From assembly GCA_944323735.1 (NCBI GenBank), contig CALUTO010000016.1:1-42187 (forward strand): DNA of 42,187 nucleotides, written 5' to 3'. The position numbers were made by a program, and so were the translations under genes. A model generated the notes under the pieces. The model ran no database searches and was not told where the DNA came from. It worked only from the letters and a program-made list of their open reading frames with translations. Origin of the DNA: Candidatus Gastranaerophilales bacterium (GTDB lineage Bacteria > Cyanobacteriota > Vampirovibrionia > Gastranaerophilales > Gastranaerophilaceae). Of this stretch, positions 14,235 through 27,114 are shown piece after piece. Numbering within the stretch: position 1 is the first letter of the stretch; each line of letters begins with the position of its first letter.

Positions 14235-14420
14235 CTCACTTGAACTCTGCTCTGTTTAAAAAGGGAAACAGCCCGAATTAAACACATCAAAAAAACAAGT
14301 TTAAGTTTTTATTTTCTTTATGAATGTAAACTAATATTAATTCTTTCAATTATATATATCAATTTCTCAGGATAAAAAAACTTTATCTATATGAGGGATA
14401 TTAATATTTTGGAGAGAAAA

Positions 14421-17057
14421 ATGATTACACTTGCTGCTATAGGCAGAAATCAGGAAGTTAAACAAACAACGACACCGGCTTTACAAAAAGCTGAAAAAAA
14501 CCTGTTTTCAACTCCCTCCGTAAATACAAATGAAATATCAACAAAACCCGAATTCTGGAATGAAAACACAAAGGCCATTCTTTATAACATTACAAAAAAT
14601 ACAGGGATTGCACCTTACACTCCAACGGTCTTAAAAGATGACAATACAGCAATAAAACATGCCCAAAAACATTTGATTGACCTGCTAAAATATTACGAAG
14701 GCGACAATTATCACTACTATGAAGCAATAACCATACCCTACAAAGACGGATACGGCAGTCTCACCTGCGGCTTCGGTGAATTAACAGACAAACCAAGAAC
14801 ACAGGAAATTGCATATAAAAATTTGGGTGAAACTATTGAAAAATATACAAAAGAAGTAAAAAGATTTCTAAATGTAAAGCTCGGAAAAGAAACCTATGAA
14901 AATCTTCCGAATTCAATAAAAGAAGGTCTTATTGATCTTTGCTATAATAAAGGACTGTCAAGAATAAGTACAAACAAACAGCTTCTGAACGCAATAGAGT
15001 CTAAAGATTACCCGGCAGTAATCAATAATCTGGATTACGTATACTCCGGAAAAACAAATGCAAAAAAAGATGAAGACCCCGGTTTATACAGAAGAAGCCT
15101 TAACAGAATGATTCTTGCGGCAAGAGATTTAAAAGGCAAAGAACTTGATGAAGCAAAAAAGATTATCTCTTCATTTTACAAAAAAGCACTAAATTGCCAT
15201 AAAGAGAATAAATCACAAACCACTGAACTCAACAAAATTTATGAAAATTTTCAAACCGGAAAAATATCAGGCGCACCTGTAAATGTTGAATCCGGAAAAA
15301 TAAAAGTCACTGATAAATACAAAGGGAAAGGCGTATTTGCCGTAGCTCAGGATGCATATATAAACATAAAAGACAAGGGCAATGTAACATTCAAAGAGTT
15401 TTATGAAGAATTTAAAAGAATAAATAGAAACCCTCAGGGCATTTCACTCGGAACTGAGCTTAACGTACCCCTGATTAAAAATATAACCGCACAGGGTACG
15501 ACAGAAGTTTCCGCACCGGTTAATGCTGCTTTAAATACAAACACAAATAAAGAAATACCGGAACAGCAAAAAGCAGAAAAAACCGAAACAAAGACTCAGG
15601 ACGAAAAACCGAAAAAAGGCTTCTGGAAAAGAGTAGGTGACGGTATTAAGTCTTTCTTCAAATCAATCGGTAAAGTTATTTCAGGATTTTTCAACCTGTT
15701 TTCCAGCTGCAGCAACAGAAAAGAAACAGAATGCAAGTCCGGCACCGCAGAGGAAGAAAAAACACAGTTCCAGAAAATGCTTAACGACCCTGAAGTGAAA
15801 ATAATTCAGGATGGAGATTTCCAACTGGTAACAAAAGAACACACCGTAAAAAAAGGCGAATCCATATGGAGAATAGCAAGAAAATACGGTATGGACGAAA
15901 ATATACTTTGCGCAAACAACAATATTAAAAACAAAAACCAGATATCAGAAGGACAAACGCTTAATATCCAAAAACTGGGCTATAAAGTAGAAAAAGGAGA
16001 TAATTTATACAGAATTGCAAAAAAATTCGGCTTAACCATTGAAATTTTGAAAGATATAAATAACATTGATGATGTAGACAAACTCGATGCCGGACAAATG
16101 CTTGAAATTCCAGGTTTTACATATACAGTAAGACCAAAAGACACGCTCTATGCTATTTCAAAAAGAGTCGGTGTAAAACTCGATGACCTGATAAAAATAA
16201 ATAATCTCGACAAAGACGGTATTATTTCACCGGGACAACAAATAAAAATTATATACAACGACAGTGATTTTGCAATTTCTGATGACAAAAAGACAATCAC
16301 CGTAGACAAAAAAACTAACACAACAACAGAGATAATTGATATGAGCGGAGTTGTTAACCTGAAAAACAGAACACTGCTGAAACAAAAACGTAAAATTAAC
16401 GGAAAAGTCGCAGCAACAAGAGCTGTATTTAACCCGACAAAATCAGGAGCTTTGAGCGGCAAAACAATTATAGTAAACGCAGGACACGGCTATTCTCAAA
16501 GCGGTATAGATGCAGGCACACCCGGAAGAAAAGGTCTCGAAGATGAATGGCTTATAAATTATGACAATGCAATGAGACTGAAAGACCGTCTCTGTGCAAA
16601 AGGTGCAAAAGTCATTTTCCTTCAGGGTAAAAAACGTTTAATTATGAATGAGATTAAAAAACCGGAAAACAATGCTGATATGTTTATTTCAGTACACGTA
16701 AATTCACATGATAAACAAACACAGGACAGAACCCAAATTTATTATGCAAGACAAAACCAGAGTAAAAAACTGGCAAATCTTATGGAAAATAAATTTGATA
16801 AATGGATACCGGAAAATGAAAATATTTCCGGTAATGATAAATTCACTGTCGGAGGGAAACAGGACTATGCCCAGTCCAAACACGCAAACTACGATGTCTT
16901 AACAACTATGGAAAAAAATCAAAATAAACCGGGAGTGCTCTGGGAAGTAGCCTTCATGGTTTCCCCGAAGGGAAGAGAAAGAATGAGCAATCCCGAACTT
17001 ATGACAGACTATGCAAAGTGTATGGCAGATGCGGTTGTCGATTATTTTAAAGGATAA
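14421..17057 (+). CDS. Lysozyme-LysM-amidase peptidoglycan hydrolase
   Basis: An 878-aa multidomain murein hydrolase. About 75-255 is a GH24 (T4-type) lysozyme: E93 in YYEG, D109 in YKDG and T115 in SLTCGFGE match the catalytic E-D-T triad, with the spacing from D to T as in T4 lysozyme. A linker with a Trp/Phe-rich amphipathic stretch (400-430) leads to three LysM repeats (about 472-518, 520-564, 567-611). The C-terminus is an Amidase_3 domain (about 680-876) with zinc ligands H689, E709 and H759 and catalytic E842 in VLWEVAF. It lacks a recognisable signal peptide. Start chosen for GGAGAG 4-5 nt before ATG; an upstream Met has no RBS. Confidence 0.88.
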   Translation: MITLAAIGRNQEVKQTTTPALQKAEKNLFSTPSVNTNEISTKPEFWNENTKAILYNITKNTGIAPYTPTVLKDDNTAIKHAQKHLIDLLKYYEGDNYHYYEAITIPYKDGYGSLTCGFGELTDKPRTQEIAYKNLGETIEKYTKEVKRFLNVKLGKETYENLPNSIKEGLIDLCYNKGLSRISTNKQLLNAIESKDYPAVINNLDYVYSGKTNAKKDEDPGLYRRSLNRMILAARDLKGKELDEAKKIISSFYKKALNCHKENKSQTTELNKIYENFQTGKISGAPVNVESGKIKVTDKYKGKGVFAVAQDAYINIKDKGNVTFKEFYEEFKRINRNPQGISLGTELNVPLIKNITAQGTTEVSAPVNAALNTNTNKEIPEQQKAEKTETKTQDEKPKKGFWKRVGDGIKSFFKSIGKVISGFFNLFSSCSNRKETECKSGTAEEEKTQFQKMLNDPEVKIIQDGDFQLVTKEHTVKKGESIWRIARKYGMDENILCANNNIKNKNQISEGQTLNIQKLGYKVEKGDNLYRIAKKFGLTIEILKDINNIDDVDKLDAGQMLEIPGFTYTVRPKDTLYAISKRVGVKLDDLIKINNLDKDGIISPGQQIKIIYNDSDFAISDDKKTITVDKKTNTTTEIIDMSGVVNLKNRTLLKQKRKINGKVAATRAVFNPTKSGALSGKTIIVNAGHGYSQSGIDAGTPGRKGLEDEWLINYDNAMRLKDRLCAKGAKVIFLQGKKRLIMNEIKKPENNADMFISVHVNSHDKQTQDRTQIYYARQNQSKKLANLMENKFDKWIPENENISGNDKFTVGGKQDYAQSKHANYDVLTTMEKNQNKPGVLWEVAFMVSPKGRERMSNPELMTDYAKCMADAVVDYFKG

Positions 17058-19744: not shown

Positions 19745-21136
19745 ATGAAAATAAATAAAATCAGCTTCGGCGCAGTAAAAACACAGATAGCAGAGCCTGC
19801 AGGAAACAAAAATAAAAAAAACGCAAAACTTTCATCGTATAATGATACATTTGAAAGGTCATACACTGCCCCAAAAAGCGGAATTTTGAAAAACACACTT
19901 GCGGCGATTACCCTGTCTCTCGGACTTGCATCTGCTCCTATCAGTACAAATGCACAGCAGTACAGGATAGTCACCACATCCGACTGGATTGTCGGAAAAA
20001 CAACAAGCGACAAAAGTGTCTACGGACTTGCCAAAAGATTTAACATGTCGCCTGAAAAATTCAGCGAAACTTTTGATGTTCCCCTTGACGGCGTGAAAAA
20101 AGGCTATGTATTTAAGGTTCCGTCTCACAAAGTAGACAACGGAGAAACCCTTTCTTCTATTGCAAAAATGTACAAAATGGATGTTGCACTACTTGCTCAA
20201 ATTAATGATATTGATATGAAAAAAGATGCTGCACTAAAACCGGGCGAATATATTTTTATACTTCCTAATAAATCATTGAAAAAAAACGGAGAAAAACAAC
20301 CGTCTGAAGGAAATAGCGCACTTGACTATCTTAACAAAAGAGTATACACAACCTCCGGCAAAAAATGGACAGTTCAATCACTCCACGAACATGTACAAAC
20401 TACAGCTCTGGAAAACGGAAGACCTGCAAACAGACCTTTGCCTTTAATAGATAAAAACGGAAGAATAATTGCAGAATTTAACGTTTTCGAACCGGAAGGA
20501 TACGGCAAACTCGTTAATAAAACAATTATAATAAACACGGGTCATGGTTATAAAGCAAACGGCGAGTTTGATGCCGGCAGCAGTAATGCAATTCTTGCAG
20601 AAAACAAGGCGGGAAAAATAGTCGAAACCACAAACTTTACAGGCAACGGAGGAAAAGCTCTTGAAGAATGGAAGGTAAACAAAGACCTTGGTATTGAAAT
20701 TGCGAAAGAGCTCTGTAAACAGGGAGCAAAAGTTACGGTAATAAGCGGCGACGAAAATCTTGCCGAAAAAGCAATAAGAAAAACTGATGCACATATGCTA
20801 ATCAGCCTGCATAGCAACAATGATACTGATACCGGCATCAGAATTTTATACAATATCCGCAACGGTCTGGATAAACAGGACAAAGAGCTTGCTGATATTA
20901 TGCAGAACAATTTTGAATCAAATTCAAGATTAAGAGGCAAAAATGAACAAAAAGGAGAATCACTTGATATCTTAAGTGCTTCCAAACTGAAAACTCTTGA
21001 TATTCCTGCCGTTATGATACAGACCGGAAATCTTCGGGACAAAAAGGATATACAAAATTTAACGTCGGGATTTTTCAAAAAAGCCCTTGTTCAACAAATA
21101 GAAAACAGTATTTTTGAATATTTTGATAAAAATTAA
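19745..21136 (+). CDS. SFG-leader LysM-amidase with altered catalytic residue
   Basis: 463 aa. The leader MKINKISFGA (SFG at 7-9) is followed by a polar stretch and a late signal-peptide-like or anchor helix (about 45-70, LKNTLAAITLSLGLASAPISTNA). A weak LysM-like unit (about 75-126) and a clearer LysM (128-174) precede an Amidase_3 domain (about 255-462). Zinc ligands H267, E308 and H356 are present. The position of the catalytic Glu in the final V-x-E-x-G motif is Gln426 (VMIQTGNL). It could therefore be an inactive, regulatory or substrate-binding amidase. It follows pheT by 59 nt, with RBS AGAAAGGG. Confidence 0.85.
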   Translation: MKINKISFGAVKTQIAEPAGNKNKKNAKLSSYNDTFERSYTAPKSGILKNTLAAITLSLGLASAPISTNAQQYRIVTTSDWIVGKTTSDKSVYGLAKRFNMSPEKFSETFDVPLDGVKKGYVFKVPSHKVDNGETLSSIAKMYKMDVALLAQINDIDMKKDAALKPGEYIFILPNKSLKKNGEKQPSEGNSALDYLNKRVYTTSGKKWTVQSLHEHVQTTALENGRPANRPLPLIDKNGRIIAEFNVFEPEGYGKLVNKTIIINTGHGYKANGEFDAGSSNAILAENKAGKIVETTNFTGNGGKALEEWKVNKDLGIEIAKELCKQGAKVTVISGDENLAEKAIRKTDAHMLISLHSNNDTDTGIRILYNIRNGLDKQDKELADIMQNNFESNSRLRGKNEQKGESLDILSASKLKTLDIPAVMIQTGNLRDKKDIQNLTSGFFKKALVQQIENSIFEYFDKN

Positions 21137-24222: not shown

Positions 24223-24349
24223 GTTTTTAGCTTTTTTAGTGTAAATACTATATACAAAAAAATAGAAGCTTTTTACCTTTTAGCAATTCATGATAGAATA
24301 TTATAAAGTTAATTTTTGAGTAAAGTCAGAGTAAGGTTAGATATCATAG

Positions 24350-25444
24350 ATGGGTGATGAAGACAAGCAATTTGAAGCTTCCCAGCAAAAATTAGAAAAA
24401 GCAAGGAAAGAGGGACAGGTCGTAAAGTCAAAAGACTTTTCAACAGCTCTTGCTATGATAGTTATGTTTTTTGCAATAGCAAAAGCCGCTCCTTTTATCT
24501 GGGATCAAATTACAAAACTTTTCGTCCTTTGCTATGAGCAGATACCCAACCAGCATCTTGAAAGCATAGGATATCCTTATCTTTTGTTCATAACCCTTCT
24601 GCCGACTATTCTGATTATCGGCCCCATACTTTTTCTTGCTGCATTTATCGGTATTATGGGTGATATGATACAGGTAGGACCTCTTGTCACAATGACACCT
24701 CTGTCACCAAAACTCGACAAACTCAACCCGACAAAATACTTCAAAAATATAATGAGCATAAAAACCCTGTTCGAACTGGTAAAAAATATTTTAAAAGTAA
24801 TAATTCTCGGATATATAGGCTGGATTGTATACCAGTCCCACTTTGAAGTCATTCTCGGACTTGCGGCTATGGATAACAATTTTGCAATAATGCAGGAATT
24901 CGGAAACCTGATTATGGATTTCGTTATGAAAGCAGGTATAGCATTTTTGATTATTTCTGTTGCCGATTATGGTGTAACCAGATGGAAATTTATGCAAGAC
25001 CAGAAAATGTCCTTCAAAGAAGTAAAAGATGAATACAAAAACTCTGAAGGAGACCCCCATGTAAAAGCCGCACTCCGCCAGAGACGTCAGCAAATGCTCC
25101 AGCAGGGTATGATGGATGCTGTTCCCGAAGCGGATTTTGTTGTTACAAATCCTACACATATAGCTTGTGCACTGAAATATGATTCTGAAAAAATGGAATC
25201 ACCCATGCTGGTAGCAAAAGGTACAGAGCTTTTCGCAAAAAAAATAATCGAAATAGCAAAACAACACTCTGTTCCGGTTATAGAAAACCCGCCAGTAGCA
25301 AGAGCTCTTTTCAGAATGGTTGAAATTAACCGGGAAATCCCGCCGGATTTGTATAAAGCGGTAGCAGAAATTTTACTGTTTGTATATAATTTGCGAAAAT
25401 CAAAAAAAGCTAGTAATATAGATACTAGGATGGACAAGAATTGA
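24350..25444 (+). CDS. flhB: FlhB-family type III export apparatus protein
   Basis: A 364-aa inner-membrane switch protein of flagellar or type III secretion. The N-terminus GDEDKQFEASQQKLEKARKEGQV is the typical FlhB/YscU start. Four hydrophobic segments lie within about 33-205, and the cytosolic domain contains the autocleavage motif N267-P-T-H in VVTNPTHIACALKY. Length is normal. Its usual partners (FlhA, FliP, FliQ, FliR) are absent from the window. It is followed 2 nt later by a FliA/WhiG-type sigma factor. The RBS is weak (AAGG about 13 nt away). Confidence 0.92.
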   Translation: MGDEDKQFEASQQKLEKARKEGQVVKSKDFSTALAMIVMFFAIAKAAPFIWDQITKLFVLCYEQIPNQHLESIGYPYLLFITLLPTILIIGPILFLAAFIGIMGDMIQVGPLVTMTPLSPKLDKLNPTKYFKNIMSIKTLFELVKNILKVIILGYIGWIVYQSHFEVILGLAAMDNNFAIMQEFGNLIMDFVMKAGIAFLIISVADYGVTRWKFMQDQKMSFKEVKDEYKNSEGDPHVKAALRQRRQQMLQQGMMDAVPEADFVVTNPTHIACALKYDSEKMESPMLVAKGTELFAKKIIEIAKQHSVPVIENPPVARALFRMVEINREIPPDLYKAVAEILLFVYNLRKSKKASNIDTRMDKN

Positions 25445-25446
25445 CA

Positions 25447-26124
25447 ATGATTAATCAGGCGCAGTCAAAAATTAAAGAATACATAGAAATAGTAGAAAAA
25501 GTAGCGAAAGTAGAACACCGCCGCATACCTTCACATATGGTCGATTATGAAGAACTTGTGAGTATCGGTATAATAGCCGTTCAATCAATGATAAAAGACA
25601 AAACGCCCGAACAACTCGAAAAATACAACAGCTCTTACATTGGCACGGCTGTCAGGTGGGCAATTAGAAACGAATTAAGAAACAGATATAAATGGTATTC
25701 TCTGAAACATACAAAAGAACAGTCTGATTCTGCGGACAGTGCTTCTGTTGACGGAGAAAGCGGTGATTTGGATATATCTCCGGGCAAAGTTAGAGAAGCA
25801 ATCTATGAAACTATCCTGTCTATTGATTCTATTGCAGCAGCATCATCTGACAATGATTCGCCTTTTGATTTTATAAAAGACCCCCATGCCATGCCGGATG
25901 AAAAAGCAGAAATTTCTGAACTCGGCCGTGCAATAAGAGAGGCAATTGCAACACTGCCCCAGAAAGACAGACTTATTGTTGAATATAGATTTTACAGAAA
26001 TATGCAGGTAAAAGAAATTGCCGAGCAGGTCGGTCTTTCTTCCTCCAGAATTACAAGAATAGTTCAGTCCGCCCTGAATCATGTGCGTGAATACCTTATT
26101 CAGCATGAGCATTACAGCTACTAA
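25447..26124 (+). CDS. FliA/WhiG-type sigma-70 factor
   Basis: 225 aa with sigma region 2 (about 28-85: MVDYEELVSIGIIAVQSM, then YIGTAVRWAIRNELRNR), a variable acidic spacer (about 92-150) in place of a clear region 3, and region 4 (about 160-215: LPQKDRLIVEYRFYRNMQVKEIAEQVGLSSSRITRIVQSAL). It most resembles the sigma-28 branch that drives flagellar, chemotaxis or sporulation regulons. The ATG is 2 nt after the flhB stop; a TTG overlapping flhB is a less likely start. The acidic spacer is unusual. Confidence 0.82.
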   Translation: MINQAQSKIKEYIEIVEKVAKVEHRRIPSHMVDYEELVSIGIIAVQSMIKDKTPEQLEKYNSSYIGTAVRWAIRNELRNRYKWYSLKHTKEQSDSADSASVDGESGDLDISPGKVREAIYETILSIDSIAAASSDNDSPFDFIKDPHAMPDEKAEISELGRAIREAIATLPQKDRLIVEYRFYRNMQVKEIAEQVGLSSSRITRIVQSALNHVREYLIQHEHYSY

Positions 26125-26127
26125 AAT

Positions 26128-27114
26128 ATGTATATTTTATTTTTTATTACAACTGTTATCTTATTCATATTTCTCGTCTCGCTCAGTTTAAAATATAAAA
26201 AACTGAAACAAACATTTCGCAATCATAAAAAATCACTACGCAGTATTTTAAAAACAATTAACTCCGTACGATACGGCAATCTTTTCGAGCGGGTTAATCC
26301 TGCCAGCTTTGTGCTTCTTCCCAATTTCTCAGAAAGTATAAACAGAATGATAGAGGCATTTGTCGATAGAGAAAATATGATAAATGAATATCAAAATGAC
26401 TTGAACAAAAAAATTGAAGCATTAAAAGAAATTGAACAGCTGAAAGAAGATTTTGTAGCAACCCTTACTCACGATTTAAAAGTACCAATCATTGCAGAAA
26501 AAAACATGCTGAACTTTCTTCTGGAAAACCGTTTCGGAGACTTAAACGAAAAACAGCGCGAGGCAGTTGTTCATCTGCAAAATTCAAATAAAGAATTAAT
26601 CGAGCTTGTTGAGATAATTCTAGAAACATATAAATTAAAAGAAACAAATTTAAAGCTAAACAAAGAAAATATTGAACTTGATGAACTTATAAGCTCTGTT
26701 ATAGAAGAAATGACACCAATTGCCGAAGCAAGCTCTCAAAAAATAAATTTCAACTCCGGATACAAAGGAAGTGTTTTTATAGACAAATTTTATCTGAAAC
26801 GTGTTCTAAAAAATATAATACTAAACGGTCTTTCTTTTACCGAATCAGGCGGCTATCTTGATATTTCCACAAATAATATACCGGACACCGGTGGGGCAGA
26901 GATAAAAATAACAAACTACGGTGCGGGCATAGATGAAAATGAAATAGAACACATTTTCGATAAATACTATTCTTCTGCAAAAAAATTCAGAAAAATAGGC
27001 ACAGGTCTCGGACTTTATCTCTCGAACAAAATAATCGAAACACATGAAGGAAAAATAGAAGTTAACTCTGTTGAAAATTCCCACACAACATTCAAAATCG
27101 TGTTAAAAAAATAA
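26128..27114 (+). CDS. Sensor histidine kinase
   Basis: 328 aa with one N-terminal membrane helix (4-22), a HAMP-like and coiled-coil linker (about 25-105), a dimerisation domain with phospho-acceptor H115 in LTHDLKVP, and a HATPase_c domain with N233, NYGAGIDENE (263-272) and GTGLGL (291-296). It has no periplasmic sensor, so it probably reads a membrane or cytosolic cue or a partner such as FlhB. It is 3 nt after the sigma gene and has no adjacent response regulator, so it is an orphan kinase. Confidence 0.9.
   Translation: MYILFFITTVILFIFLVSLSLKYKKLKQTFRNHKKSLRSILKTINSVRYGNLFERVNPASFVLLPNFSESINRMIEAFVDRENMINEYQNDLNKKIEALKEIEQLKEDFVATLTHDLKVPIIAEKNMLNFLLENRFGDLNEKQREAVVHLQNSNKELIELVEIILETYKLKETNLKLNKENIELDELISSVIEEMTPIAEASSQKINFNSGYKGSVFIDKFYLKRVLKNIILNGLSFTESGGYLDISTNNIPDTGGAEIKITNYGAGIDENEIEHIFDKYYSSAKKFRKIGTGLGLYLSNKIIETHEGKIEVNSVENSHTTFKIVLKK

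Follow-up and report, generated by a model that had tools for sequence, protein, structure and literature searches.

A conserved flhB-sigma factor gene pair in Candidatus Gastranaerophilales and its probable place in a second flagellar-type export gene set

Background

Flagellar basal bodies that retain an export gate but no filament have been described in Buchnera, a non-motile, host-associated bacterium, with protein secretion proposed as their role, and the same source (Abby and Rocha 2012) treats the 'Myxo' non-flagellar type III secretion system (NF-T3SS) of the Myxococcales, a conserved type III system without a part in motility that was once annotated as a relic and whose function was argued from conservation. 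In Lysobacter enzymogenes, also non-flagellated, working flagellar-type export genes are otherwise used and affect twitching (PMC7277350). For gut melainabacteria the literature reports partial flagellar gene sets, with the loss of flagella inferred in Di Rienzi 2013, where the P and L rings are reported missing in MEL.A1, and in Soo 2014, where three of nine genomes had complete flagellar sets and loss was inferred for the others; partial sets are also reported in Utami 2018. Here we analyse a stretch of 42,187 nucleotides (the window), which is a contig of a Candidatus Gastranaerophilales genome (GCA_944323735.1, contig CALUTO010000016.1) on which a flhB gene is followed by genes for a sigma factor and a histidine kinase. 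We find that the pair of flhB and sigma factor probably belongs to a second type III export machine of the flagellar kind, whose FlhB end it forms; this machine is found beside a flagellum or without one.

We call this second gene set system 2 and its proteins FlhB2, FlhA2 and so on, the flagellar counterparts being type 1. System 2 resembles the flagellar basal body and export apparatus in its FlhAB, FliFHIOPQR, FliE, FlgB, FlgC and FlgF/G families, for which flagellar models outscore those of injectisomes, and it differs from a flagellum in being kept where flagellin is absent and in coexisting elsewhere with a full flagellar gate set. Whereas Buchnera has one reduced flagellum, system 2 is a second set beside the flagellum, with a sigma factor of its own and an FlhA better conserved than that of the flagellum; whereas the 'Myxo' system belongs to the NF-T3SS clade, system 2 has flagellar rod proteins and scores as flagellar; and, unlike the Lysobacter genes, it has an apparently dedicated sigma factor and an upstream element. 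A search by title and abstract for type III secretion or flagella in Gastranaerophilales, Melainabacteria and Vampirovibrionia, with subscription journals mostly outside its coverage, returned no description of a second system.

The flhB2-sigma pair

The source genome (G000) consists of 2.06 Mb in 56 contigs, the window being contig C16. The features that concern us, all on its forward strand, are as follows.

24271..24299, + strand: candidate promoter of sigma-70 type for the flhB2-sigma operon (TTTTAC-N17-TAGAAT; a TG lies one base 5' of the -10 element), proposed from the sequence by eye
24350..25444, + strand: flhB2, predicted export-gate/switch protein of system 2 with an NPTH autocleavage motif (Pfam, NCBIfam)
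25441..26124, + strand: predicted sigma factor of the sigma-28 (FliA/WhiG) class, in which regions 2 and 4 are recognised and region 3 is not (Pfam, profile, model)
26128..27114, + strand: histidine kinase without a sensor domain, a clade-specific neighbour 3 nt after the sigma gene (HisKA and HATPase_c by Pfam)

A preliminary description of the window, made from its letters, had joined these three genes by gaps of 2 and 3 nt. They lie as placed, the 2-nt gap applying if the sigma gene starts at ATG 25447; the alternative TTG start at 25441 overlaps flhB2 by 4 nt. FlhB2 matches PF01312 (E 1.5e-115) and narrowly passes the flagellar FlhB model TIGR00328 (350.6 bits, cut-off 349.25), and its NPTH motif, the predicted cleavage site, keeps N, P and H in 30/30 loci of relatives and T in 18/30. 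Two further statements of that description hold: Pfam finds HisKA and HATPase_c and no sensor domain in the kinase, and a Pfam scan of 20 of the other open reading frames of the window found no other export genes.

The sigma gene lies directly 3' of flhB2 in 28 of the 30 loci of relatives, and FlhB lies directly 5' of the sigma gene in 78 of 80 loci from named genomes; with adjacency at this level, the pairing exceeds chance. The kinase is present in just 6/30 and 29/80 of the same loci, which rules it out as a core part, the downstream gene being variable. The conserved unit is thus FlhB and sigma, the kinase being an addition in one clade, and of the trio first proposed it is this pair, outside the flagellar cluster, that proves widely conserved; the possibility that the trio is kept in no relative does not fit so broad a retention of the pair. 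Besides the link to FlhB2, no consistent partner was found 3' of sigma in the 80 named loci. Both genes are on the same strand in all 27 loci with both frames, separated by -4 to 253 nt, and identity of the sigma factor is 66-94% within the order (93% at best among the best 80 named-genome relatives). The pairing extends beyond the family: all eight sampled genomes of family f8 of the class have a single FlhB, nearest to FlhB2 (45-49% identity), a sigma gene directly downstream of it (31-36% identity) and no flagellin match, and G365, of family f9, has an FlhB2-sigma pair at 54% and 58% identity. G023 has FlhB2 without an adjacent sigma gene.

Two export gene sets in one genome

The source genome encodes two full-length FlhA (contigs C22 and C8), two FliP (C27 and C12), two FliF (C30 and C8) and, besides FlhB2, a second FlhB on C27 (locus L023) beside FliP and FliR-type genes. 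The flhB of the window, first called an orphan, is therefore one within the window but not within the genome, and the flagellar set that does exist elsewhere contains its own FlhB (L023) and not the trio. In this genome the genes of system 2 are spread across four or more contigs.

C29: two FlgF/G-like proteins, FlgB, FlgC, a lytic transglycosylase, FliE
C8: FliF, FliG-like protein, FliH, FlhA, FliI
C12: FliM/N-like protein, FliO, FliP, FliQ, a small protein, FliR
C16 (the window): FlhB2, sigma factor

The sets of the C29 and C8 types are joined in one gene run in G034 and G021, and the order FliF, FliG-like, FliH is found in 24/24 fetched loci, with FlhA next in 23/24; the fetched loci were picked around system 2 and are hence a non-random sample of genomes. 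Near flhB2 in G009 and G034 are genes for FliJ-like and FliK-like proteins, both matching below Pfam cut-offs, and for a 278-aa FlgE/F/G-like protein. Judged by its order, the published run flgG, flgG, flgC, fliF, fliH, flhA, fliI would correspond to system 2.

Among 39 relatives, FlhB2 occurs in 36 (65-97% identity). Flagellar-type FlhB is found in 24 of the 25 relatives that have flagellin, G030 being the exception, and in none of the 14 that lack it. When FlhA, FliP and FliF were split into flagellar and second types by a gap in score, the second type was found in 36, 39 and 38 of these relatives, respectively, and the flagellar type of each in 24. A larger sample of 386 genomes of the phylum holds 170 of the window's family, 54 with flagellin and 116 without a Flagellin_N match (genomes without a match were taken from among those listed, and if the listing follows kinship, as is assumed, both FlhB-less family members are among them). 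FlhB2 is found in 167 of the 170 and in 114 of the 116; a second FlhB match accompanies it in 52 of the 53 genomes with flagellin and FlhB2, and occurs in one of the 116 flagellin-less genomes, as a gene split across two contigs. One gene set tracks flagellin and is that of the flagellum, and the window's set persists in genomes that lack flagellin together with flagellar-type FlhA, FlhB, FliP and FliF. From these sequence comparisons, a conserved second flagellar-type export set is very probable.

The published reading of flagellin-less gut genomes would instead make system 2 the remnant of a lost flagellum, decaying through genome reduction, in line with the partial sets and inferred losses in Di Rienzi 2013 and Soo 2014. 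We regard this as very unlikely, since flagellated genomes carry system 2 alongside another full gate set, and since it is kept in nearly all flagellin-less members of the family and has its own FlhA clade: FlhA1 and FlhA2 form separate clades (support 100/100), and FlhA1 of the source genome is 42% identical to E. coli FlhA versus 36% to its own FlhA2. In comparisons of both proteins with those of G000, conservation is higher for FlhA2 (FlhA2 versus FlhA1, for example: 82/69% in G034, 79/69% in G028, 94/83% in G022). Values of dN/dS for flhB2 and sigma are 0.013-0.059 across one flagellated and three flagellin-less genera, rough ratios in that many dS exceed 1. On these estimates flhB2 and sigma are under strong purifying selection and system 2 is not decaying. 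The preliminary description had offered the remains of a flagellar regulon put to another use; its other use comes close to the outcome of the comparison, but the set is retained independently of flagellin and is not a remnant.

Two observations on the same gene families stand apart. A soluble protein made up solely of the FlhA cytoplasmic domain (FHIPEP positions 321-655, no membrane part) is encoded at L022:2287-3750 (contig C23 of G000) next to a PSP1-domain protein, and such a third FlhA-like protein is found in 37/39 relatives. G001 has 23 Flagellin_N matches, unusually many, several of them within open frames of 600-1400 codons.

A predicted rod-bearing basal body

FlhB2, FlhA2, FliI2, FliP2, FliQ2 and FliR2 all score higher on the flagellar model than on the matching Sct model, FliP2 barely. 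The flagellar equivalog cut-off is passed by FlhB2 and FliP2 only; FlhA2, FliI2, FliQ2 and FliR2 fall below theirs, as do FlgB (56.8, cut-off 59.05) and FlgC (88, cut-off 102.1) on the rod models. No Sct equivalog cut-off is passed (score/cut-off: SctU 323/358, SctV 600.5/692.25, SctN 537.9/604.75, SctR 202.3/208.6, SctS 59.4/76.5, SctT 117.3/163.05). A true injectisome (NF-T3SS) would also possess a gate set without flagellin, and FliP2 does pass the EscR/YscR/HrcR injectisome subfamily cut-off (224.7 versus 179), a point against the flagellar assignment, to which may be added that in G009 a small protein encoded between the genes for FliQ2 and FliR2 matches the pilus/secretin N-domain PF13629 below threshold (E 0.0014), with no such match in G000. 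With the model scores favouring the flagellum, a flagellar C-domain in FliF2, and flagellar rod proteins and FliE present, an injectisome is nonetheless highly improbable. The small protein is predicted to be exported (L077:15048-15410, L090:9491-9859).

FliE and both FlgF/G-like proteins score above cut-off, the latter two on the FlgEFG subfamily model, and FliE, FlgB, FlgC, the two FlgF/G-like proteins and the transglycosylase are together a predicted rod and way through the wall. Flg_bbr_C matches number 1-3 in each of the 14 flagellin-less relatives versus 3-9 in flagellated ones, and no Flg_bbr_C protein of hook size was found in the flagellin-less relatives among the matches listed. Because rod proteins are present, Flg_bbr_C matches few and flagellin absent, system 2 is predicted to encode a rod-bearing basal body with an export gate but no flagellin.

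Such a body could end in an unrecognised hook or filament, or share the hook and filament of the flagellum, and the rod proteins together with the 278-aa protein and the FliJ- and FliK-like genes in the vicinity of flhB2 (G009, G034) would suit this. It is an unlikely arrangement, given the absence of flagellin and the paucity of Flg_bbr_C matches, and at 278 aa the FlgE/F/G-like protein falls short of the hook-type frames in flagellated genomes (~440-560 aa, among the matches listed). The gate might alternatively have been recruited without secreting substrates of its own, for control of type IV pili, as an inner-membrane 'hat' or as a nanotube-like body, for which there are precedents in PMC7277350 (Lysobacter) and PMC9380563; the retained rod proteins, FliE and transglycosylase point to a structure that crosses the wall, and we consider recruitment of this kind improbable to a similar degree. 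A rod-bearing secretion machine is, on the gene content, the rather likely use of system 2.

Several points weigh against this picture. No clear FlhB2 was found in G024, G027 and G038 among the 39 relatives, or in G100, G212 and G179; FliI was not found next to FlhA2 in 11 of the 13 loci from flagellin-less genomes, a count that includes stretches too short to show it; and no substrate of system 2 is known. For the FliG-like protein, Pfam matches stay below threshold and the fold searches give no clear match, its model retrieving mixed helical proteins by Foldseek and VIA-align and no FliG among the matches listed. Its name is given from its position and those sub-threshold matches.

The sigma factor

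The window's sigma factor has a Sigma70_r4 match (Pfam, E 4.9e-12) and no Sigma70_r3 match at E 0.001, and on the FliA_WhiG subfamily model TIGR02479 it reaches E 6.7e-24 with 84.9 bits, below the cut-off of 189.6. The best solved relatives of its profile are WhiG (7lq4, E 7e-15) and FliA (1rp3, E 8e-14). In the structure model (mean pLDDT 63.5) helices of regions 2 and 4 are present and residues 85-147, in the place of region 3, are unstructured; residues 1-83 align with sigma-28/FlgM 1rp3, ranked first by VIA-align (Z 9.9, rmsd 2.3, 81 aligned), and Foldseek with the model gave no match at E 0.001. The likeness to FliA and WhiG is one of profile and predicted fold: these are the nearest solved structures, from which the window's sigma differs in lacking a recognisable region 3 and in falling below the subfamily cut-off.

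A paralogue of this factor is encoded at L023:14949-15572 (contig C27 of G000), with the flagellar FliPQR-FlhB cluster at a distance of about 2.5 kb. An assignment of one sigma factor to each system on this basis was dropped, as the best sigma matches in the flagellin-less G100 and G212 are closer to the paralogue (57.8% and 59.1%) than to the window's sigma; in G034, no sigma gene was found in the fetched flagellar FlhB locus. A canonical FliA-like factor with regions 2, 3 and 4 is encoded at L077:3729-4550 and L089:3371-4207; it occurs in the flagellin-less G009 too, 3.8 kb from the rod genes.

A shared upstream element

Upstream regions of system 2 were taken as gaps of at least 60 nt before FlgF/G1, FliE, FliF, FliM/N, FliJ, FlgB or SLT (78 regions, some of which are not operon starts), and the near-copies L237 and L238 were excluded from word, dyad and matrix counts. 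By word counting, ATCATTAA is found in 13/41 system-2 upstreams versus 3/619 others, and in held-out loci TCATTAAA occurs in 5/37 (p 3e-4). Aligning the word matches brings out GACT (or GATT) exactly 12 nt upstream. The resulting dyad, GAYT-N12-NCATTAA, is present in 23/78 system-2 upstreams versus 2/662 others, no gap but 12 in the range 6-21 giving a system-2 match, and a location-blind scan of the 1.63 Mb of fetched loci gave 32 intergenic N12 sites versus 1-4 for each other gap of 8-17, 28 of the 32 lying 48-154 nt 5' of a system-2 operon; the N12 spacing was noticed with the held-out sequences already visible, so that these counts and the scan are descriptive and not independent tests. 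A leave-one-locus-out matrix at 14 bits selects 28/78 system-2 and 1/662 other upstreams. Because its spacing is exact, the dyad suggests a promoter or a two-part operator.

Both dyad-bearing upstreams outside system 2 precede a 307-aa frame that heads the rod operon in G034 and G029. This protein (L079:2473-3396, L262), unassigned to a family, is possibly a FliK-type or substrate gene product.

The dyad may be read by the flhB2-linked sigma factor, and it is reasonably likely that this factor regulates system 2. Several results weigh against the connection. The held-out loci are weak for ATCATTAA (2/37, p 0.025); the dyad is clear before flhB2 in just 1/42 upstreams (G009) and is not in the window, where one-mismatch matches number 11 versus 13.2 expected; it occurs in 21/37 genomes or loci, and the source genome has merely a one-mismatch copy, before FliF2. 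G023 carries the dyad yet no sigma gene beside FlhB2, and the dyad could equally be assigned to the canonical FliA-like sigma or an activator as to the window's sigma. It is a serious, if lesser, possibility that the sigma factor is a long-standing neighbour serving other genes and that another regulator reads the dyad, which is not a promoter of the sigma-70 or of the classical sigma-28 type; the FliA-like factor of the flagellin-less G009 would be at hand for this. What a mere neighbour accounts for less well is an adjacency that holds in other families of the class, where sigma identity is 31-58%, with no other consistent partner 3' of sigma.

Promoters of the sigma-28 type, for which the preliminary description had proposed a search, are not enriched in the window (7 matches versus 6.06 expected). 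They do appear elsewhere, a sigma-28-like TAAA-N16..18-CGAY preceding the rod operon in 9/11 genomes from the rest of the order and in 0/6 of the family itself, and because of this difference regulation may have changed hands.

A common promoter before flhB2 was rejected, the upstream words being clade-specific and many upstreams resembling the end of another coding sequence: TTCATGATA and GTTGAGTAA, words around the candidate promoter, are found again before flhB2 in some of 76 named loci, and the words there recur solely in close relatives. The word GATGATTTT, found before system-2 operons (7/50 versus 1/506), was set aside, its copy in G034 lying in a hairpin before a T run; it is probably linked to a terminator. 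In G023 the rod and FliF operons are broken up by long stretches of intergenic DNA in which similar words are repeated (L093, L253).

Proposed role and significance

Proceeding from what is read in sequence, namely the gene set, its conservation and the upstream element, we infer secretion and control by the sigma factor as follows. System 2 would build a rod across the cell wall and secrete proteins through it without a filament, and the NPxH site of FlhB2 together with the FliK-like protein would switch substrate class. The co-encoded sigma-28-class factor would activate the dispersed operons, probably at the dyad, a link that would tie assembly of the gate to transcription, and the kinase would be a later input in one clade. 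We put forward more tentatively the wider proposition that nearly all Candidatus Gastranaerophilales and neighbouring families carry a filament-less flagellar rod that secretes proteins and whose building and timing are governed by a sigma-28-class factor of its own, co-encoded with FlhB and reading an unusual promoter (approximately TTGACTTT-N10-TCATTAA). Such a surface organelle is not described as such in the literature found.

On this proposition, a conserved machine in its own right would stand behind the "incomplete" or "decaying" flagella of non-motile gut melainabacteria, a rereading that applies across the order, in gut and environmental members. If the machine secretes proteins, it would be a near-universal and as yet unstudied pathway through which these gut inhabitants could affect neighbours or host. 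It would also be a natural case of filament-less flagellar parts in use, bearing on the origin of secretion systems from flagella, and a test case of a sigma-28-class factor tied to an export gate instead of flagellin.

Other features of the window

Two cell-wall hydrolases with LysM and Amidase_3 domains are encoded on either side of pheT, at 14391-17057 and 19745-21136 of the window, the first additionally carrying a phage-lysozyme-like domain.

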